Assembly (NCBI GenBank): GCA_027451605.1
Contig: DAIDJA010000017.1
Coordinates: 1-12,605, forward strand
DNA length: 12,605 nt
Direction: 5' to 3'
Origin: Acidimicrobiales bacterium
GTDB lineage: Bacteria > Actinomycetota > Acidimicrobiia > Acidimicrobiales > JABEUL01
In this document: positions 2,436-11,058 of the stretch, one piece after another
Numbering within the stretch: position 1 is the first letter of the stretch
How the letters are laid out: each line of letters starts with the position of its first letter
Notes under the pieces: generated by a model
The model's input: the letters and a program-made list of their open reading frames with translations, nothing else
Databases searched by the model: none
What the model was told of the DNA's origin: nothing
Translations under genes and position numbers: made by a program

Positions 2436-2468
2436 AAGACCGTCTTTTAAATATTTAAAGACGGTCTT
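2436..2468 (-). terminator. Hairpin terminator after dnaE2, upstream of ilvC
   Basis: A perfect 12-bp stem (AAGACCGTCTTT at 2436-2447 and its reverse complement at 2457-2468) encloses a 9-nt A/T loop. It begins 45 nt past the dnaE2 stop codon on the minus strand. The sequence after it (AAGGCCTTTAAATAAAAG) has no continuous U run, so termination could be partial. It also lies 68 nt ahead of the ilvC start, so some readthrough into ilvC is possible. Confidence 0.7.
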
Positions 2469-2513: not shown

Positions 2514-5500
2514 TCAGCGATAGTCTTTGCTTCCTAAAGTTGCAGGTACTTCAAGTTTTTCTACGGTTTGGACATTTATTGTAATTGATAAGGTATTCTC
2601 AACTCTGACCACGGTGCCTTTAATTATTAGACCATGATTATTTGCTGTTTTTTTCCATCGAATCCATGCCCCCGGGGAAAATACCGTATTAATGAATCCG
2701 GTCTCATCTTCCAAATTTATAAAGACTGTTCCTTTTGCCGTAGGCGGAGCCTGCCTGTGAGTTACAAGCCCTGCCACTTTAATCACATCGCCAGTGTCAA
2801 AAGTGGTTAGATCTTTAGCCTTTACTATATTTAATCCGTTTAATTTATCTCTGAGTAAAGCGATTGGATGACCGTCCAGTCCTATTTGAACGGCCTCTAT
2901 ATCAAGTGCCAATCTCTCTGTTTTTGTCTCAGCCAAAAGAGGCGGTACTTTGATATTCAAAATTCCCGGAATTCTTGTGGGGTCTGCAACCTCACTTAAG
3001 ACTTGCGAATTCCAGATAGCCAGCCGCCTTTTCAGATAAGGGTCTGCCTCTATCAGAGGATCTAAAGCTCTGGCTGATGCCAAGATCTCAATCTGTGATT
3101 TGGTGGCTTTTGTGGTCTTTGCAAAATGCTCTAAATCTGAATAAGGCCCAAGGGAGGATATTTTTTCGGAAAATTCGACAGTTAAGTGAGATATAGTACA
3201 AAGCCCCAAACATACGACAAGATCTTTATTCTCTCTTATTATCGATGTTTTTCTTTCTGAAATATTTACGTTGGGTCCCGTTATTTTAACATTATGCCGC
3301 TTAGCGTCTTCGATTAAGGTGGCTGGTGACCAAAAACCCATGGGCTGGGCATTTAACATGGCCGTCAACCAAATTTCCGGATAATGTAGCTTAAACCAGG
3401 CCGATATATAGACTAAATAGGCAAAGGAGATGGCATGGCTTTCGGGAAAGCCATATCCGGAAAATGCGATAATTTGACGTACGATCTTTTCTGCGACCAA
3501 TCGATCGATTCCGCGCATAGCCATATTGTCATACAGTCTGTCTTGTAGCTTCTCCATTTTTAATTTTGATCGTTTTGAACCCATGGCTGACCTAAGTTCA
3601 TCGGCATCTTCTGCGGTAAAGCCCGCTGTGTCCATTGAAAGCCTCATTAGCTGTTCCTGAAACAGGGGAATTCCCAATGTCTTTTCCAAAGCCGGCTTTG
3701 CTGTTTCATGGTCATATGTGATCCGTTCTTTCCCCGACCGACGGTTCAAATAGGGGTGTACCGCTCCCCCCTGAATGGGGCCGGGTCTTATTAGGGCAAC
3801 TTCAATTACCAAGTCATAAAAGCACTTCGGCTTTAGCCTGGGTAGAGTGTTCATTTGAGCTCTGCTTTCAACTTGGAATACGCCTACGGAGTCTCCTTTT
3901 GATAGCATTTCATATACCTCGTTTTCCTGGGGCAGTTGGGATATGTCAACATTTGTGTCATGGTGTCGTTTGACTAATTTGACAGCCTCATGTATGGCAT
4001 CTAAGATTCTAAGACCCAAAAGGTCAAATTTGACCAAACCCGCAGCGGCACAGTCGTCCTTGTCCCACTGTAAAACACTTCTGTTGGCCCGGGTAGCCCA
4101 TTCAACCGGACAGATCGTCGAGACGGGTTCTTTGGTCAGTACGATACCGCCAGTATGTATGGACAGATGTCGAGGTGTTGATTTCAGGGAATTTATTAAA
4201 GATAAAAGGGGCTCCGGGAATGATTCGACGCCTTTGAGCTTAAGTTCTCCGGAGAGTTCATCGATCTTATCGGCTTTATAGTTTAAAACTTTTGCAACTT
4301 CGCGGAGTGCCAATCTCGACCTATAGGTAACGACGTTGGCTACTTGAGCTGCATTGAACCTTGAATACTTATCATAAATATAATTTATAACTTCATCCCG
4401 CCGATGCGACTCGATATCAATGTCTATGTCGGGCGGTCCTTCTCTTGCTTTGGATAAAAATCTCTCGAAGAGGAGCCCCAGAGATACGGCATCCACATTT
4501 GTTATTCCAAGTACATAGCATACGGCTGAGTTTGCAGCAGAGCCTCTTCCTTGGCACAGAATATCGTTAGAGTTGCAGAAATTTATTATGTCATATACGA
4601 CAAGGAAGTATCCGGCATAGCCAAGTTCTTCAATTATCTTAAGTTCATAATCCAGTTGTCTATAAGCGCCTTTTGGTGATTCGTTAGATCGTATTTTGTA
4701 TTTGGACTTTGCCTTTTCGTATACGGTTCTCCTTAAGAATTGTATTTCCGAAGTACCGTCGTGAGTTTCAAAGCTGGGTAGTTCGGGTGCAACCAGATTT
4801 AAGTTAAATGAGCAGTCAGCGGCAATCTCAGAGGCAGTCTCTACGGCTCCGGGCCATCTGGCAAAATTCGTCATTTGCTCAAAATGCCCTTTGAGGTACG
4901 CAGAACCGGCGACGGGAAGCCATCCATAAGCGTCTTGCAGAGTTTTATTCCCCCGGATTGCCGATACCACGTTTGACAGATAGAACTCTTTTTGTGTCGC
5001 ATAATGGACATTGTTTGTGGCTACATATCTCAGATTATATTTAACGGCAAGTTTGGACAGTACATCGTTTCTTTCGGCGTCGATTGGTTCTCTATGATTC
5101 CACAGCTCAACTATTACGTTATCTTTGCCGAATATCTCAATTAATTCGGCAAGCCTGATATCGGCGGCTTTGGTTCCTTTTTCCATCAGTGCAGTATTCA
5201 AAGGACCTTTTCTGCATCCGGTTAGTACAATCCAATCGTTACCGTTTAGTGATGCAAGTGACTTGAGATCAAACCTTGGTTCGTTTTTTTTGCCGTTTAG
5301 TTGAGCTTTAGATATGGCGTGAGCCAGAGATTTATATCCTTTAACATTTTTGGTAAGTATAACTATGTGTTCACCGAATGGATCAATCGCTCCGCTGCGT
5401 TTTTCTGTTCCGTCAATTGTAAGCTCGGCACCGAATATTGTGGCCAAACCATGCTCGGCTGCCGCTTGGCTAAATCTGACCACTCCGTAGAATCCGTTAT

Positions 5501-5618
5501 GATCGGTCAATGCCAAAGCCGAAAGTCTGAGCTCTGTCGCCTTTTCAACCAGACTTTCCGGACTGGATACTCCGTCCAAGAAACTGTAGTAGCTGTGACA
5601 GTGAAGTTCTGCGTACAT
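2514..5618 (-). CDS. dnaE2: Error-prone DNA polymerase III alpha-type subunit DnaE2 (ImuC)
   Basis: C-family polymerase that performs mutagenic translesion synthesis with ImuA and ImuB after DNA damage. At 1034 residues it is slightly shorter than most DnaE2 proteins. The order is PHP domain from residue 1 (HCHS at 6-9, TDHNG at 38-42, GAEL at 63-66), palm with QGRGSAANSAVCYVLG (356-371), the catalytic PPDIDIDIE (D397 and D399) and third Asp in VKFDLLGLR (D532), fingers with IRPGPIQGGAVHPYL (610-624) and LFQEQLMRL, then SGYGFPESHAISFAYL (720-735), typical of DnaE2, and a C-terminal OB fold (about 943-1025). It starts 6 nt after the imuB stop codon with no strong ribosome site of its own, which suggests translational coupling. 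It is the last gene of an SOS-controlled operon. The DnaE2 rather than DnaE1 call is supported by its ImuB neighbour and by its length. Confidence 0.96.
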   Translation of the reverse strand: MYAELHCHSYYSFLDGVSSPESLVEKATELRLSALALTDHNGFYGVVRFSQAAAEHGLATIFGAELTIDGTEKRSGAIDPFGEHIVILTKNVKGYKSLAHAISKAQLNGKKNEPRFDLKSLASLNGNDWIVLTGCRKGPLNTALMEKGTKAADIRLAELIEIFGKDNVIVELWNHREPIDAERNDVLSKLAVKYNLRYVATNNVHYATQKEFYLSNVVSAIRGNKTLQDAYGWLPVAGSAYLKGHFEQMTNFARWPGAVETASEIAADCSFNLNLVAPELPSFETHDGTSEIQFLRRTVYEKAKSKYKIRSNESPKGAYRQLDYELKIIEELGYAGYFLVVYDIINFCNSNDILCQGRGSAANSAVCYVLGITNVDAVSLGLLFERFLSKAREGPPDIDIDIESHRRDEVINYIYDKYSRFNAAQVANVVTYRSRLALREVAKVLNYKADKIDELSGELKLKGVESFPEPLLSLINSLKSTPRHLSIHTGGIVLTKEPVSTICPVEWATRANRSVLQWDKDDCAAAGLVKFDLLGLRILDAIHEAVKLVKRHHDTNVDISQLPQENEVYEMLSKGDSVGVFQVESRAQMNTLPRLKPKCFYDLVIEVALIRPGPIQGGAVHPYLNRRSGKERITYDHETAKPALEKTLGIPLFQEQLMRLSMDTAGFTAEDADELRSAMGSKRSKLKMEKLQDRLYDNMAMRGIDRLVAEKIVRQIIAFSGYGFPESHAISFAYLVYISAWFKLHYPEIWLTAMLNAQPMGFWSPATLIEDAKRHNVKITGPNVNISERKTSIIRENKDLVVCLGLCTISHLTVEFSEKISSLGPYSDLEHFAKTTKATKSQIEILASARALDPLIEADPYLKRRLAIWNSQVLSEVADPTRIPGILNIKVPPLLAETKTERLALDIEAVQIGLDGHPIALLRDKLNGLNIVKAKDLTTFDTGDVIKVAGLVTHRQAPPTAKGTVFINLEDETGFINTVFSPGAWIRWKKTANNHGLIIKGTVVRVENTLSITINVQTVEKLEVPATLGSKDYR

Positions 5619-5624
5619 TTTAGA

Positions 5625-7061
5625 TTAATCGTATATTCCCGCCAGATACCACTGCTGTTTAAACGAATAGACAAGCAATGCAATTTCATCTTCTGTTATC
5701 AACTGTAGGTAGGCAAATCGCTTGAACTTAGATTCATCCCACCAGAATTCGGAGATCGGCCACGGTCCGAAGCACGACGATATTTTTTTCTTGAATTTTG
5801 TCGCTACGATAAAATAAGGCGTGTCCGACATGAGAGCTTTATGGTTTACGGAAACTTTTATGGCATTTTTATTAAAGATGTCGATCTCCACCGGGTCTTC
5901 ATAAAATATGCCGGGATGAAATGTCGGTATGTTGGAAGGCCAGGGTCTTGATAGTTTGTCTATAGGCAAAAAAACCTCTTGATCGGTTAAGCTTTCATAA
6001 AAGATTGCCCCATCTTCAGTAAGTTCGTCTGTTCTGAACCCGCTCTTTATATAGGGAATTTCAACTTTTGAATCATAAAAAATTTTGCCTCTGTCACATG
6101 CGGGACGCCTTCCGGGTTTGATGATCGACTTATATATTCGATCTGTGCCAAGCAGTACTTCGATATGCTCTAAAGCCTTATCTAATCTTGGATTTTCTTT
6201 GACTTGCTCAAAGGATAAGTTATCTTGGAAGTATCCGTTTGATACGATGTCTTTTGCGGTAAATTCTATTTGTTCAATTGCTCCTGTTGGTTGTAGAATT
6301 TCAAGAAACCATCTGACTCTGTCTACTAAGTTTCTTTTATTAAAAAAGGAGTTGGAGTACCAGAGTCTTTCTGCGTTTTGGGAATCATCAAAATTAATTT
6401 TTAATAGTATCGAAGTAACAAGCAAACCTTGTTTGGCGATCGAGTCGATAAAGGATTCACTTAGTTGTTTGACATTGAACAATATTTGTTCGTAACTAAA
6501 GCTGGGAGGGTCAAATATGATATGACGTGTGAAAGCACGTTCTTTTTGCTGAAAGTTTAGATCATAGAGTTTGCCCTTGGCTAAATCGTGACACCACTTG
6601 CCACTGAGGCCCAATCTTTCTAAGATCATTCCCTCGCCAATGGCGCCAAATTCTCCGAGTGTCTTAATTCCGAGCTTTAACAGAAAATCGGCTATCTGTT
6701 TGTCCGGCAGATATCTGACCGATAACGGCGCCAAAAATTCTTGAATTTTATCCTGAGGAATTATTGCACTGTGCAATGCTGCAAGCCGTGCGGCAAATAG
6801 ACCATTGCCGATTCCCACGTTAACCGGTCTTAAGAGCAGATCCGTAAGGGCTTTTGTTACCTCTTTTATCAAGTTGGCTTCGGACTGAAAATAACCCGTT
6901 GCCGAAGAAGACAGCATAGCTACTTCCCCCGGGGCAATCATAGTTACTCCGTAAGAAAACCGTTCAAGAGTTTCCGTGGCTTCAATAAAACCGGCGGCAT
7001 CATCTTTTGGCCAACCCGGAGATATAACGTACAATATTCGGCTGTTAAAACTTCGTTCCAT
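5625..7061 (-). CDS. imuB: ImuB, inactive Y-family polymerase-like adaptor
   Basis: Adaptor of the mutasome. Related ImuB proteins resemble Y-family polymerases, lack polymerase activity, bind the beta clamp and bring in DnaE2. The 478 residues open with RILYVISPGWP, the ImuB form of the first palm strand, without the catalytic Asp of active DinB. The equivalent of the second acidic motif reads APGEVAMLSSSATGYF (43-58), again without the Asp-Glu pair. A helix-hairpin-helix-like segment follows (PDKQIADFLLKLGIKTLGEF, 119-138). QDNLSF at 279-284 fits a hexameric clamp-binding motif in the expected place. SRPWP (371-375) and the C-terminal YLAGIYD are also typical of ImuB. The start overlaps the imuA stop codon by one base (TAATG), so translation is probably coupled. 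Assignment is from recalled mycobacterial sequences. Confidence 0.9.
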   Translation of the reverse strand: MERSFNSRILYVISPGWPKDDAAGFIEATETLERFSYGVTMIAPGEVAMLSSSATGYFQSEANLIKEVTKALTDLLLRPVNVGIGNGLFAARLAALHSAIIPQDKIQEFLAPLSVRYLPDKQIADFLLKLGIKTLGEFGAIGEGMILERLGLSGKWCHDLAKGKLYDLNFQQKERAFTRHIIFDPPSFSYEQILFNVKQLSESFIDSIAKQGLLVTSILLKINFDDSQNAERLWYSNSFFNKRNLVDRVRWFLEILQPTGAIEQIEFTAKDIVSNGYFQDNLSFEQVKENPRLDKALEHIEVLLGTDRIYKSIIKPGRRPACDRGKIFYDSKVEIPYIKSGFRTDELTEDGAIFYESLTDQEVFLPIDKLSRPWPSNIPTFHPGIFYEDPVEIDIFNKNAIKVSVNHKALMSDTPYFIVATKFKKKISSCFGPWPISEFWWDESKFKRFAYLQLITEDEIALLVYSFKQQWYLAGIYD

Positions 7062-7903
7062 TATGGATTTTCTGTGATATTGGTTATATATTGCTGCCGC
7101 TGTTTTTCGTTTTTAATTAAGTTAAACACCGTTTGTTTAATTTCTGATTTTGACTCTGACAACAGCTTCAAATTATCTGAAGCGGACTCTTTGATTATTA
7201 AAGGTATTTGCGGCAGTATAAGTGAAAACTCGACCGGCTTGTATATTCTTCTGCCGGTAACATGAAATCTAATCTGTCTTTGTATGAATCTGCCGGTATC
7301 TATGGCACTTAAGTCATCGGATGTTTTTATGACCTTAAAAGTATTTTCAACGGGGGAAATTACATAGTCAAGATGCCACGGCTGATTTAATTTATGGGAT
7401 GTCTCAATATTAAAAGCATCTAAGACAATCAGTATTGCTCTTGATGCGCGAAGTTTTGCCATTACGTTATCGAGGTTTTTGATTGTCATTAGAAAAGATG
7501 AGTTAATTGCTATTACCCCAGACCCCTTAATTAATACGGAAAGGACATGTCGCAATTTTTCACTTGCGTATCTTTCTTTGTCACAGCTATTATCGATACA
7601 GTCGATCATAATTAAATTATTGAAATTTACTCCCAGCTCATAAGCGCTTAGATAGCCGAAATTAATAGGGGAGATGTATGCTACTCTGATGTTGGATCTG
7701 GTTAATTCCGATAGGAACAGGTATGCAAGAGAGGAAGATCCAACTCGGAAGGCATTAGAAAAGCTGATACTTTTTCCGTAGGGAAGCCGACCGTTGAATA
7801 CATAACGGTGAAAGGAGAAAGGCCTTAAATCGGTAAACAGGATTTGCCGAGCAGGTAAGCTTGCTCGTAAGTATAAAGATTCGTCAAACGAAGAAAAAGA
7901 CAT
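7061..7903 (-). CDS. imuA: ImuA'-type mutasome accessory protein (RecA-like fold)
   Basis: First gene of the mutasome operon. Actinobacterial ImuA' proteins are RecA-like partners that interact with ImuB and are needed for damage-induced mutagenesis. The 280 residues show the degenerate nucleotide-binding region of the family: FRVGSSSLAYLFLSEL (52-67) stands where RecA has its Walker A loop but lacks the GKT/S lysine, so ATP binding is doubtful. It is followed by VAYISPINFGYLSAYELGVNFNNLIMID (about 74-101), close to the pattern PELGLLAAAELGV of mycobacterial ImuA'. The C-terminal third is less recognisable. The ATG at 7903 lies 6 nt after a TATAAT hexamer, so the mRNA is probably leaderless, and there is no Shine-Dalgarno. 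The identity depends partly on the imuB-dnaE2 context. Confidence 0.85.
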   Translation of the reverse strand: MSFSSFDESLYLRASLPARQILFTDLRPFSFHRYVFNGRLPYGKSISFSNAFRVGSSSLAYLFLSELTRSNIRVAYISPINFGYLSAYELGVNFNNLIMIDCIDNSCDKERYASEKLRHVLSVLIKGSGVIAINSSFLMTIKNLDNVMAKLRASRAILIVLDAFNIETSHKLNQPWHLDYVISPVENTFKVIKTSDDLSAIDTGRFIQRQIRFHVTGRRIYKPVEFSLILPQIPLIIKESASDNLKLLSESKSEIKQTVFNLIKNEKQRQQYITNITENP

Positions 7904-7915: not shown

Positions 7916-7931
7916 TCGAACATATGTTCGA
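7916..7931. promoter_or_regulatory. LexA operator (SOS box)
   Basis: TCGAACATATGTTCGA is a perfect 16-bp palindrome and matches the actinobacterial LexA consensus TCGAAC-N4-GTTCGA exactly. It abuts the imuA -10 hexamer and ends 12 nt before the start codon, where bound LexA would block RNA polymerase. RecA-stimulated LexA cleavage after DNA damage would release the whole mutasome operon. Confidence 0.95.
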
Positions 7932-8240: not shown

Positions 8241-8771
8241 TTAGGCAAGCTTAAGTTCGCTTTCAATCTTTGATTCGGCTAGGTAGCCTAACCGTGGAAG
8301 AGCCACTCTTCCTGTCCTTTGAATTCTGAGGATGCCGTAAGAATTCAGGAGCTCTTCTAAGGTATCCAATCTTTCCGGAGTCGATGACATCTCAATTGTA
8401 AGACAGGAGATGTCAACATCAACGATTTCTCCCCCGAGTGCCGTCACTATCTGGATAATTTCAGATCTTTTTTCCGGTGAACACTGTACCGTTGCCAGAA
8501 GCAGCTCCCTTTCGACCGCATCGGAAGGACTTAACTCCCGTATCTCCACTACGTTAATTAACTTATTTAGCTGACTTACCACTTGGTTCAACAGACTTGC
8601 CTCCACATCAACGACGATTGTAACTCGGCTAAGTTTGGCATCATCGGTGGGCGCTACTGCTAATGAGTAGATGTTAAATCCTCGTCTCGCAAAAAGTCCG
8701 GCAATGCGCGCCAACACACCTGCCTTATTTTCAACCAATGCCGATACTATATGATGATTTTTATTTTCCAC
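8241..8771 (-). CDS. ilvN: Acetolactate synthase small (regulatory) subunit
   Basis: Regulatory subunit of acetohydroxyacid synthase. It activates the IlvB catalytic subunit and mediates valine feedback inhibition. The 176 residues contain an N-terminal ACT domain (about 6-80) with the effector-site pattern ENKAGVLARIAGLFARRGFNI, then the second ALS-small-subunit domain with ERELLLATVQCSPEKR (88-102) and a C-terminal GRVALPRL (154-161). The length fits the usual 160-180. The start codon is GTG at 8771, with a purine-rich GGAAGAGAGA stretch about 9 nt ahead, and it lies 21 nt downstream of the ilvB stop codon, so the two subunits are co-transcribed. The gene on the far side converges on it with almost no spacer and I see no strong terminator there. 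Confidence 0.96.
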   Translation of the reverse strand: MENKNHHIVSALVENKAGVLARIAGLFARRGFNIYSLAVAPTDDAKLSRVTIVVDVEASLLNQVVSQLNKLINVVEIRELSPSDAVERELLLATVQCSPEKRSEIIQIVTALGGEIVDVDISCLTIEMSSTPERLDTLEELLNSYGILRIQRTGRVALPRLGYLAESKIESELKLA

Positions 8772-8792: not shown

Positions 8793-10532
8793 TTACTGAA
8801 CTATGCCGTCGGCGTGTTCGGCTGATATTAATATGTCGTCGTTTGGCGCTCCTGCCGGTACCATGGGGAATACCCGTTCGGTAACATCTGTCCTAAAGTC
8901 TATTACGACGGGTCTGTCGTCTATCTCATTGGCCTTTTCAATAGTGGGTATGACCTCTTCGGGAGTGTCGACCCTGAAAGCAATGGCCCCCATAGCCTCT
9001 GCCCACTTAACATAATCGGGCAGATCCGGAGACAGATAAACCTCAGAGTATCTCTCCTCGTAGAACATATGCTGCCACTGGCGAACCATACCCAAATATG
9101 CGTTATTGAGAATTGCAATCTTAACCGGAATTTGTTCAGCCGATGCCGTAACCAGTTCTTGGGCAGTCATTTGAAAGCAACCGTCACCGTCAATTGCCCA
9201 AACCGGTTTGTCAGGTCTGCCGACTTTGGCACCTATTGCAGCCGGTACGGCAAATCCCATAGTCCCTGCGCCGCCTGAATTTATCCAGGTATTTGGTGTG
9301 TCGAACTTCCAATACTGTGAGGCCCACATCTGGTGTTGTCCAACACCGGATGCAAGAATCGTACCTTCCTCTTGGCGCTTTGACAGCTCTTCTATGACAT
9401 ACTGAGGTTTGACGACATCAGTTGCCTCTCTGTCGTAGCTTAAGGGGTATTTCTGTTTCCAGCCCTTTAGGGTGTTATGCCATTCATCTATGTCCAGGGG
9501 AAGTTTTAAGTCGCCGTTTCCGTTTGAAGTCTTCTCGGTCAGCGCCCGAGTCAATTCTTCGATTGACCGTCGGCATTCGCCCAGCAGGGTAATGTCGGGT
9601 CTTCTGACCTTACCTATCTCAGCCGGATCAATATCGGCGTGTATGATTTTGGCCAACGGTGCAAAAGCCGATATCTTTCCCGTTACTCTATCGTCAAATC
9701 TGGCACCCATAGCGATGACCAGATCTGCTTTTTGGAGCGCCATGACCGCGGTGTATGTTCCGTGCATCCCGGGCATTCCCAAATTGAGTTCATTGCTGTC
9801 GGGAAAGGCTCCTCTAGCCATTAGAGTAGTTACAACCGGAATTGATGTCTGTTCCACCAATATTTTCAGAGCCGCTGACGCGTTTGATTTCAGAACACCT
9901 CCGCCGACATAAAGTACCGGGCGTTTTGAGTTCAGTATCATGTCTGCAGCAGCCGATACCGCAGCCGGGTCGGGTTCAGTCTGCATAGTGAAACCCGCAA
10001 GTGATACTGCCCCGGGTTCTTGGTAGTCGACCTTGGAGTTGGCTATATCTTTTGGAAAGTCTATGAGTACCGGACCGGGTCTTCCGGTTGTCGCCACGTG
10101 GAATGCTTCGGCGATGGTCTGCGCAATTTCATTCGGATCCTTTATGAGCCAGTTGTGCTTGGTTATCCCCATAGTAATACCGGTAATATCACATTCCTGA
10201 AATGCATCAGTGCCGATTGAGCCTGTTGCCACTTGGCCGGTAACGACAACGAGAGGGGTGGAGTCCATAAATGCATTCAGTAAGGGGGTTACAATATTAG
10301 TTGCGCCGGGTCCCGAAGTTACCATTGCCACACCGGGTCGTCTCGTTGCCATTGAATATCCTTCGGCCATATGTCCGGCTCCCTGTTCATGTCTTACCAG
10401 TATGTGCCTGATTGAAGAATCCAGGATCGGATCATATACGGGCAAAATTGCACCGCCGGGAAGTCCGAAAATTACTTCAACTCCCTGATGTTCCAAACTT
10501 TTTATCAGTGCCTGTGCTCCGGTTAATTTCAT
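8793..10532 (-). CDS. ilvB: Acetolactate synthase large (catalytic) subunit
   Basis: TPP-, FAD- and Mg-dependent enzyme that condenses two pyruvates to acetolactate, or pyruvate with 2-oxobutyrate, the first committed step of valine, leucine and isoleucine synthesis. From the ATG at 10532 it has 579 residues. Landmarks are GLPGGAILPVYD (23-34), the catalytic Glu in RHEQGAGHMAEGY (E49), TSGPGATN (72-79), the FAD-region GARFDDRVTG (276-285), the TPP/Mg motif from IDGDGC (448-453) to LNNAYLGMVRQW (475-486), and W486, at the position linked to 2-oxobutyrate preference and herbicide sensitivity in relatives. The frame could also open at TTG 10544, but GGAG at 10542-10539 lies 6 nt before the ATG and decides for 10532. 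Expression should be controlled by the attenuator just upstream. Confidence 0.97.
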   Translation of the reverse strand: MKLTGAQALIKSLEHQGVEVIFGLPGGAILPVYDPILDSSIRHILVRHEQGAGHMAEGYSMATRRPGVAMVTSGPGATNIVTPLLNAFMDSTPLVVVTGQVATGSIGTDAFQECDITGITMGITKHNWLIKDPNEIAQTIAEAFHVATTGRPGPVLIDFPKDIANSKVDYQEPGAVSLAGFTMQTEPDPAAVSAAADMILNSKRPVLYVGGGVLKSNASAALKILVEQTSIPVVTTLMARGAFPDSNELNLGMPGMHGTYTAVMALQKADLVIAMGARFDDRVTGKISAFAPLAKIIHADIDPAEIGKVRRPDITLLGECRRSIEELTRALTEKTSNGNGDLKLPLDIDEWHNTLKGWKQKYPLSYDREATDVVKPQYVIEELSKRQEEGTILASGVGQHQMWASQYWKFDTPNTWINSGGAGTMGFAVPAAIGAKVGRPDKPVWAIDGDGCFQMTAQELVTASAEQIPVKIAILNNAYLGMVRQWQHMFYEERYSEVYLSPDLPDYVKWAEAMGAIAFRVDTPEEVIPTIEKANEIDDRPVVIDFRTDVTERVFPMVPAGAPNDDILISAEHADGIVQ

Positions 10533-10601
10533 TTTAGTCTCCAAGTTGTAATCTTGCTGTCTTTACCAATTTCAAGTCGGTTCAAAATCTTCGCCTTAAA
10601 T

Positions 10602-10629
10602 AAAAAAGCCCCCAGATTGATGGGAGCTT
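10602..10629 (-). terminator. Attenuator terminator in the ilvBN leader
   Basis: On the minus strand AAGCTCCC (10629-10622) pairs with GGGGGCTT (10613-10606), eight pairs with one G-U, around the 8-nt loop ATCAATCT. It runs straight into a T-rich tail (six T at 10607-10602, then ATTT). It lies 69 nt upstream of the ilvB ATG and 26 nt after the leader peptide stop codon, so it would end transcription before ilvB unless disrupted. Confidence 0.88.
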
Positions 10630-10656
10630 AAAGTACACGCCTTGTTAAGCGCGTAC
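10626..10656 (-). promoter_or_regulatory. Competing hairpins of the ilvB attenuator
   Basis: Two mutually exclusive pairings are visible on the minus strand. Hairpin 1:2 is GTACGCGC (10656-10649) with GCGTGTAC (10640-10633), eight pairs including one G-U, starting at the last base of the leader stop codon. The alternative 2:3 pairing is GCTTAA (10650-10645) with TTAAGC (10631-10626). It shares bases with hairpin 1:2 and with the 5' arm of the terminator. At six pairs the antiterminator is short, so this part is an inference. Confidence 0.6.
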
Positions 10657-10694
10657 TACATTACTACTACTACGAGGTTTTGAAAAAACTTCAT
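10656..10694 (-). CDS. ilvB leader peptide (attenuation, valine-rich)
   Basis: A 12-codon frame reading MKFFQNLVVVVM and ending in TAG. Codons 7-11 are one Leu (CTC) and four consecutive Val (GTA, 10673-10662). This is the signature of a leader peptide that senses valyl-tRNA charging. Scarcity of charged tRNA-Val would stall the ribosome on the GTA run, covering the first arm of hairpin 1:2 and allowing the antiterminator. Normal completion to the stop codon would cover 10650-10645 and let the terminator form. There is no Shine-Dalgarno; a TATAAA hexamer ends 7 nt before the ATG, which suggests a leaderless mRNA. The final Met codon before the stop is unexplained. Attenuation of ilvBN operons by such peptides is established in other actinobacteria; the mechanism here is inferred from sequence only. 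Confidence 0.85.
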   Translation of the reverse strand: MKFFQNLVVVVM

Positions 10695-10701
10695 TAATAT
10701 A

Positions 10702-10731
10702 TTTATAGCACGAATTTTTGCACTGTGTTAC
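10702..10731 (-). promoter_or_regulatory. Putative promoter of the ilvB leader and ilvBN
   Basis: Minus-strand TATAAA (10707-10702) serves as -10, and GTAACA (10731-10726, 4 of 6 to TTGACA) lies 18 nt upstream as a weak -35. The start would fall on the A of the leader peptide ATG. An A/T-rich inverted pair (CAAAAAA at 10731-10737 and TTTTTTG at 10742-10748) lies just upstream and could act as an UP-like element. Confidence 0.6.
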
Positions 10732-10808
10732 AAAAAAATAGTTTTTTGTCAAATCGCAAGATTTACTATTAACGCCATAATCAGCACTGACTATGCTTGA
10801 TTCGTTGC

Positions 10809-10972
10809 ATGAAGTTTGACGGTAGATCTTTAGGTCATAAAACATTTGATGCCCTTAGAAGGCACTCAGTTTGTCAAATAGTTGAAGATGGTCATTCAGC
10901 CAAAGCAGTTGGGAGATGTTTTTAGGTTTCCATCTACGGACAGTCCGGAACCGGGTTCGTAATTGCAAAAAA
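10809..10972 (+). pseudogene. IS630-family transposase, N-terminal remnant with frameshift
   Basis: The first 38 codons (to a TAG at 10923) begin MKFDGRSLGHKTFDALRR and continue with VCQIVEDGHSAKAVGRCF. They follow the N-terminal pattern of IS630-type transposases: DGR-x-L-x-H-x-T, then an Arg-rich helix, V-x-x-G-x-S and a helix-turn-helix. The conserved Gly-Phe that should come next appears one frame away (GFHLRTVRNRVRN, from 10925), consistent with a one-base indel in the T run at 10919-10923. After about 10972 nothing of the DDE catalytic domain is recognisable, so the gene is truncated as well as frameshifted. No terminal inverted repeats could be identified. The family call rests on recalled sequences. 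Confidence 0.7.
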
Positions 10973-11058
10973 GATGAAGCGCAATTACTTCAACAGAATG
11001 TGGGACAATCTCTATTGCAGTGTTCTACCTTTTGAATGGTCAAGAATTGCTTGCAAAT

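Follow-up and report, generated by a model that had tools for sequence, protein, structure and literature searches.

A candidate valine-sensing attenuator ahead of ilvBN in an Acidimicrobiales bacterium, with leaders of like build before leuA, leuB and cimA

Experiments on the ilvBNC operon of Corynebacterium glutamicum, in the parts of the report that deal with its leader (PMC11857589), support leader-peptide attenuation with GUA among the control codons; removal of the leader start codon cut expression by 80%. The corresponding part of the work on ilvB1NC of Mycobacterium tuberculosis (PMC13236596) also gives experimental support for leader-peptide attenuation, again with GUA among the control codons. 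Upstream open reading frames (uORFs) and terminators before ilvB have been described in Corynebacterium, Mycobacterium and Streptomyces in PMC1262725, which, in the section concerned, calls the mode of regulation not clear and cites possible regulatory codon changes before S. coelicolor ilvBNC that were without effect, a result that counts against attenuation. Transcription starts close to the start codon are on record for the ilvB leaders of C. glutamicum (PMC11857589) and S. lividans (PMC8079986), as far as the relevant passages go. Our literature searches combining Acidimicrobi- with attenuation, leader peptides, ilvB or citramalate synthase found no report among the matches listed.

Here, we describe a leader that precedes ilvB and ilvN in a 12,605-nt stretch of DNA (the window, meaning the whole stretch analysed) from an Acidimicrobiales assembly of 2.18 Mb and 83% completeness. 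We propose, with a probability of about 85%, that it is a ribosome-mediated ilvBN attenuator sensing charged tRNA-Val, chiefly the GUA-reading isoacceptor, and we infer both termination in the cell and a response to starvation. Attenuation by charged branched-chain tRNA is very likely because the layout is conserved, GUA is strongly preferred, the stems covary and the codons match the operons.

The ilvBN leader and its relatives

The uORF begins with the ATG at 10694, and its run of GTA codons is followed by ATG (Met) and then by the TAG stop at 10658-10656 on the minus strand (Table 1). Hairpin 1, with arms and loop AGTACGCGCTT-AACA-AGGCGTGTACT, takes the second base of the stop codon as its first base and is separated by 2 nt from the terminator stem, whose energy is -13.6 kcal/mol. 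The ilvB start is the ATG at 10532, 69 nt beyond 10602, and ilvD lies upstream of the leader on the same strand. The element is more than chance, since the 99-nt leader folds with z = -4.47 (0 of 200 shuffles as low) and its arrangement is conserved. The details that an earlier note had read from this sequence, namely a 12-codon uORF, four GTA codons, a stop-codon hairpin, a six-pair alternative, a U-tailed terminator and the 69-nt distance, are all correct, and its view of the element as an ilvBN attenuator testing mainly valine is supported. The final Met codon, which it had called odd, proved ordinary, as the last codon is Thr in 43, Arg in 15, Pro in 11, Ser in 9 and Met in 7 of 107 leaders.

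Table 1. Features of the ilvBN leader region in the window
Feature	Position	Strand	Basis or status
Probable -10 box TATAAA (extended TGc, 10710-10708)	10702..10707	-	sequence; same place in relatives
Leader uORF MKFFQNLVVVVM, 12 codons, TAG stop	10656..10694	-	sequence and relatives
Val control codons, 4 x GTA	10662..10673	-	sequence
Hairpin 1, 11 pairs, -14.6 kcal/mol	10632..10657	-	predicted fold
Six-pair alternative, 5' strand GCTTAA	10645..10650	-	present; antiterminator role not supported
Six-pair alternative, 3' strand TTAAGC	10626..10631	-	present; antiterminator role not supported
Intrinsic terminator: 9-pair stem 10629-10606, T run 10607-10602	10602..10629	-	predicted fold
ilvB, acetolactate synthase large subunit, controlled gene	8793..10532	-	NCBIfam match over cut-off
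ilvN, acetolactate synthase small subunit	8241..8771	-	NCBIfam match over cut-off

The comparison drew on 130 ilvB loci (L002-L131, of which L002 is the window): 30 and 20 from genomes, the window's own counted, and 80 from named contigs, the last being the best 80 of 589 loci. The labels of these best 80 of 589 IlvB relatives are mostly Acidimicrobiales, Acidimicrobiaceae, Acidimicrobiia or Actinomycetes, with a few Acidobacteriota or "bacterium"; the viral contigs searched held no IlvB relative. A fixed pattern recovered a uORF and terminator in 113 of the 130 loci, the other 17 being short of upstream DNA (4) or without the pattern (13), and six of the latter (L008, L037, L049, L070, L100 and L108) plainly bear the element. 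Removal of L085, a false case with no leader, and merging of five near-duplicates identical over 30 nt left 107 distinct leaders, the window's included. All have a terminator and a short uORF rich in Val, Leu or Ile codons, with a hairpin that begins within or next to its stop codon. The pattern demanded CTCC..GG(A/G)G, so that conservation of the terminator sequence is partly the result of selection; the same holds for the Val/Ile/Leu enrichment of the uORFs, which were picked for that content, and the share of GTA is unaffected.

Leader peptides of the window's family include MKFFQNLVVVM (L003), MKISSSIVLVVM (L004 and L112) and MSSNLIVLVVM (L005), and one from a neighbouring family is MSALHTLVVVIVT (L113). 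Side by side with these stands a second leader type (L075, L076, L077, L079, L090, L094 and L102), in which the uORF continues past the Val run, e.g., VVVGARRR; most of its members have a base-sharing alternative stem near GCCGGT..ACCGGAGG.

A covariance model built on these leaders matched 54 of the 59 nearest genomes, the window's genome among them, at E values up to 0.01; of 296 genomes sampled from the phylum it matched 79, where the matched site did not always precede ilvB. The match at L193, which precedes an isocitrate lyase gene and has a poor uORF, was taken as false. Against Rfam 15, neither the window nor any of 16 loci had a match that reached the gathering score, and the low-score listing for 10480-10760 held no ilv family down to E 10.

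The ilv cluster of the window is itself split, between ilvN and ilvC, by a mutagenesis cassette on the minus strand (2514-7903). It encodes an ImuA'-like protein with a weak NCBIfam match and an ImuB-like Y-family protein with matches to DNA polymerase IV, both short of the cut-off, as well as the error-prone DNA polymerase DnaE2, whose match exceeds the cut-off. The same gene order occurs in another genome of the genus (G002), and ilvN adjoins ilvC in two genomes of the family (G003 and G004; the three loci are L308, L309 and L310, respectively). The sequence CGAACATATGTTCG, which we take to resemble an actinobacterial LexA box, stands at 7917-7930 on the minus strand, 13 nt before the ImuA'-like gene, and the cassette is probably served by an SOS promoter of its own. 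A long hairpin (AAGACCGTC...GACGGTCTT; 2436-2468, minus strand) lies between dnaE2 and ilvC, and ilvC may be transcribed apart from ilvBN.

Control codons, promoters and leaders of other operons

Among the last eight codons of the leaders, GTA makes up 175 of 239 Val codons (73%), compared with 4.2% of 4978 in the ilvB genes. The bias is present in the subset whose ilvB exceeds 60% GC, where GTA accounts for 137 of 185 leader Val codons against a mean of 1.5% in ilvB, and where 89 of 90 leaders carry at least one GTA. In the window's own genome GTA is not rare, at 30% of ilvB Val codons. Only 2 of the 107 leaders are devoid of GTA, and the 5'-most GTA occupies codon -4 in 57, -5 in 19 and -3 in 15 of them, lying at -4 or farther upstream in 89.

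Transcription appears to be set on the start of the uORF. A TTG-type -35 box together with a -10 box places the transcript start at the uORF start in 79 of 103 leaders (4 of the 107 have too little upstream DNA), compared with 0-3 of 103 at each of eight shifted positions, and a motif like a Shine-Dalgarno site precedes 3 of the 79 promoter-positive uORFs, compared with 71 of 107 ilvB genes. The uORF is thus probably leaderless, in that the transcript would start at the AUG, without a Shine-Dalgarno site. The window leader fails this strict placement test, and no promoter emerged from a strict scan for sigma-70 sites in 10200-11000; TGcTATAAA stands 7 nt before its ATG, where relatives have the -10 box.

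Leaders of the same layout precede other genes of branched-chain amino acid synthesis. A fold-based scan found them at 18 of 25 leuA loci (within L202-L226; 26 loci matched, and the partial L227 was excluded), where the hairpin and terminator follow Leu runs of at least three consecutive codons in all 18 (LLLLT, LLLLV, LLLLM, etc.), and found Val/Ile leaders (VAVIP, IVVIP, VVIIA) at 16 of 30 leuB loci, scanned from 58 matches. The scan is lossy: L213 was missed, although L173, at the same place, has a Leu leader. Ten proteins downstream of further covariance-model matches were classified by NCBIfam as 3-isopropylmalate dehydrogenase (2), 2-isopropylmalate synthase (2), citramalate synthase (4) and isocitrate lyase (1), with one giving no match; the four cimA leaders end in FIIIP, AIIIIL, TVIIT and RIIGS. 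Preferred codons recur as well, with CTT making up 25 of 72 Leu codons in leuA leaders (4% in leuA), GTA 13 of 26 Val codons in leuB leaders (3% in leuB) and ATT 10 of 33 Ile codons in leuB leaders (9.3% in leuB). The window's genome has a second candidate attenuator of like build before its own leuB (L288). Its uORF is MSKFSSQFQAIVII*, with TACAAT just before the ATG; the hairpin has 11 pairs and begins at the stop codon's second base, and 2 nt separate it from a terminator. The model trained on ilvB did not report this leuB copy. Since one layout precedes ilvB, leuA (with Leu runs) and leuB or cimA (with Val/Ile), the codons match the operons. That the codons follow the operon while the scaffold stays the same is the strongest evidence in these sequences that the progress of a ribosome over them would be what is read.

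Elsewhere in the phylum, at L186, L188, L191 and L196, a small ORF, about 92-119 codons long, comes after leaders of the LVLIT or LVLIS type; that of L196, the one checked, had no NCBIfam or Pfam match.

Stems and the predicted switch

The stems are conserved as structures. In alignment A1, which holds 71 of the 107 leaders, standard pairs make up 94.1% of cells, and two-sided changes occur in 12 of the 15 pairs; none of 500 shuffles, which ignore relatedness, scored as high, and sliding the partners by 1-3 columns lowered pairing to 35-57%. Hairpin 1 covers the span from the stop codon to the terminator in 85 of the 107 leaders (1702 of 6420 shuffles), with an energy of -10 kcal/mol or better in 79 (737 of 6420 shuffles). 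Its first base coincides with base 2 or 3 of the stop codon in 77 of 107, and it ends 0-3 nt from the terminator stem in 97 of 107. Abutment alone proves little, because 8 of 15 control terminators in the same loci (a small set, in which four rows are one L042 terminator that itself resembles that of a leuA leader) also have a fold within 3 nt upstream. The alignment of upstream regions, which the earlier note had put forward as one of its checks, bore out the Val/Leu/Ile codons, which are kept, and the covariation of the hairpin 1 and terminator stems, but not the six-pair stem, which is not conserved.

For the main reading, the following course is envisaged. Transcription would start at the AUG of the uORF, which would be translated without a Shine-Dalgarno site. 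When valine is short, the ribosome would be held on the GUA codons, and its front edge would reach no farther than the stop codon; hairpin 1 would then stay folded against the terminator and hinder it, and ilvBN would be transcribed. When valine is plentiful, the ribosome would reach UAG and its footprint would open hairpin 1, upon which the terminator would fold and transcription would end near 10602. With the front edge of the ribosome taken as A site +12, a ribosome holding the 5'-most GTA in its A site has its front edge at or near the stop codon and leaves hairpin 1 free or nearly so, whereas one at the stop codon covers the 5' arm of hairpin 1.

Hairpin 1 should act against the terminator if expression is to rise on starvation. 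That it would do so by abutment in the RNA polymerase exit channel, where two helices this near each other would lack room to form together as the terminator folds, and with no shared bases, is a tentative proposal to which we give somewhat less than even odds; it draws on geometry, and the literature search found no paper supporting the exit-channel argument. Under abutment, untranslated RNA should read through, and the C. glutamicum start-codon mutant, with its 80% loss of expression, goes against this.

The same mutant agrees with the opposite role, in which hairpin 1 pauses the polymerase or helps termination, a ribosome at the last Val codons prevents hairpin 1 from forming, and both hairpins form once the ribosome leaves the stop codon. 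Two points speak for this role: the first hairpin in trp and his leaders is usually a pause hairpin, and hairpin 1 would be partly covered by a ribosome standing on codons -3 to -1. However, the position of the 5'-most GTA, at -4 or farther upstream in most leaders, leaves hairpin 1 free, and we regard the opposite role as unlikely.

We find it quite improbable that the leader is a classical trp-type switch, in which GCUUAA/UUAAGC, or another helix sharing bases with the terminator, forms when the ribosome stalls late in the Val run. The earlier note had proposed such trp-like logic through the six-pair helix, which does exist in the window; it loses to the terminator wherever it is unmasked, and it is not conserved. 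The six-pair hairpin has an energy of -2.0 kcal/mol (its segment folds at best to -3.4), compared with -13.6 for the terminator, and it is never part of the best fold in the window: free RNA with the six pairs forced reaches -10.4 kcal/mol, and the best folds with the ribosome at Val 8, 9, 10 and 11 reach -28.7, -28.3, -23.3 and -17.6 kcal/mol, respectively. A ribosome at Met 12 or at the stop codon masks one of its strands. With the ribosome on the first or second Val codon, hairpin 1 stays intact, and the strand that stalling on Val had been suggested to free is not released. The register of the window retains 6, 4, 5, 5 and 2 of 6 pairs in L002, L003, L004, L112 and L005, with two double changes in L004/L112, and 1-3 of 6 pairs in 97 of the 107 leaders. 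In any register, six contiguous pairs occur in 2 of 107 leaders (138 of 3210 shuffles), and the best helix averages 3.3 pairs (3.6 in shuffles). The pairs retained in the close relatives count in favour of a trp-type switch, and judging from the alignment of these few leaders, a use of the six-pair helix limited to the window's family is conceivable.

Other helices that share bases with the terminator fared no better in the window leader and most relatives, where masked folds yielded no competitive antiterminator of this kind. With no ribosome, or with one at codon -5, -4, -3, -2 or the stop codon, all 107 leaders favoured the terminator at equilibrium; its nascent 5' arm was mostly paired in 18, 1, 1, 1, 3 and 3 of them, respectively. 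Masks counted from the stop codon misplace a few leaders with longer uORFs, and the calculation was therefore repeated with the ribosome at the 5'-most GTA; the terminator was favoured in 105 of 105, and the nascent arm was mostly paired in only 4 of 105 (L077, L079, L102 and L103), with pairing of 0.45-0.49 in L075, L076 and L090. These folds suggest that in the seven leaders named, whose uORFs are longer (VVVGARRR type) or whose stems differ, an antiterminator that shares bases with the terminator may be at work, a point for the trp-type switch. The terminator was favoured wherever the ribosome was placed, so that base pairing by itself provides no switch. The uORF codons can also pair with the terminator arm (a raw count of at least 3 pairs in 58 of 107 leaders without a ribosome), but this was set aside because a stalled ribosome covers those codons.

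That the element is simply a terminator separating ilvD from ilvB, and the small ORF incidental, as the terminator itself and the position of ilvD upstream on the same strand would allow, is scarcely credible in view of the GTA bias, the match of codons to operons, the promoter set on the uORF start and the hairpin tied to the stop codon.

To return to the ribosome-mediated attenuator, its widest form would be a codon-swappable device used across a bacterial class, in which a stop-codon hairpin that shares no bases with the terminator excludes it purely by adjacency within the polymerase exit channel and is opened by the ribosome at the stop codon; this general form is possible, and we consider it rather doubtful.

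Comparison with described attenuators

The leaders described here would extend branched-chain attenuation to the Acidimicrobi- group, with like-built leaders for Val, Leu and Val/Ile operons. Their strong preference for rare control codons (GUA, and also CUU and AUU) bears on which tRNA isoacceptors sense starvation well. Additionally, they offer a clean test case for attenuator switching, as most members of a large, covarying family lack the overlapping antiterminator that would be expected.

Compared with a trp-type attenuator, the leader has a predicted intrinsic terminator before the first structural gene and a putatively translated ORF with a run of codons for the operon's product, conserved and changing with the operon, but an antiterminator that shares bases with the terminator and excludes it was not found; because hairpin 1 and the terminator share no bases, the leader is not filed as a member of that class. 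Branched-chain codons with GUA, a terminator and a downstream ilvB, as in the actinobacterial leaderless ilvB leaders, are all present.

Comparable leaders have been described in other actinobacterial groups. Those of PMC1262725, in the portion on ilvB, likewise combine a short uORF containing Ile/Val/Leu codons with a terminator; for leuA of other Actinobacteria, the same source gives a LEU element without an obvious terminator, whereas the leuA leaders here have a hairpin and a terminator. The ilvL leader of S. lividans, in the passage that describes it (PMC8079986), is also a short branched-chain uORF with a terminator, and is transcribed leaderless there. The ilvB-II and ilvB-OMG motifs (PMC10272879) can be likened by their published description, as structured RNAs before ilvB with uORFs rich in branched-chain codons.

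The M. tuberculosis ilvB1NC leader, as presented in the corresponding part of PMC13236596, shares with the window a short branched-chain uORF with GUA, its terminator lying about 40 nt before the gene, and shares with the course proposed here a logic in which a ribosome at the stop codon prevents the antiterminator and one at the control codons allows it. Unlike the leader here, it is long and, from its authors' context, not leaderless, and a mutually exclusive antiterminator is predicted for it. The C. glutamicum ilvBNC attenuator, in the leader section of PMC11857589, has a VVV run, a GUA codon and a terminator before ilvB, as here, and its transcript starts one nucleotide from the start codon, which is likened to the predicted placement of the start at the uORF in most of our leaders; the VVVGARRR-type uORFs of the second leader type recall its VVVTARRLP. 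Its antiterminator hairpin lies between control codons and terminator, as hairpin 1 does here. However, the C. glutamicum antiterminator and terminator share GCC, and an earlier anti-antiterminator hairpin lies in the uORF, whereas hairpin 1 begins in the stop codon and has no base in common with the terminator stem. By analogy, the window leader would work like the C. glutamicum and M. tuberculosis ilvB attenuators, minus the shared bases.
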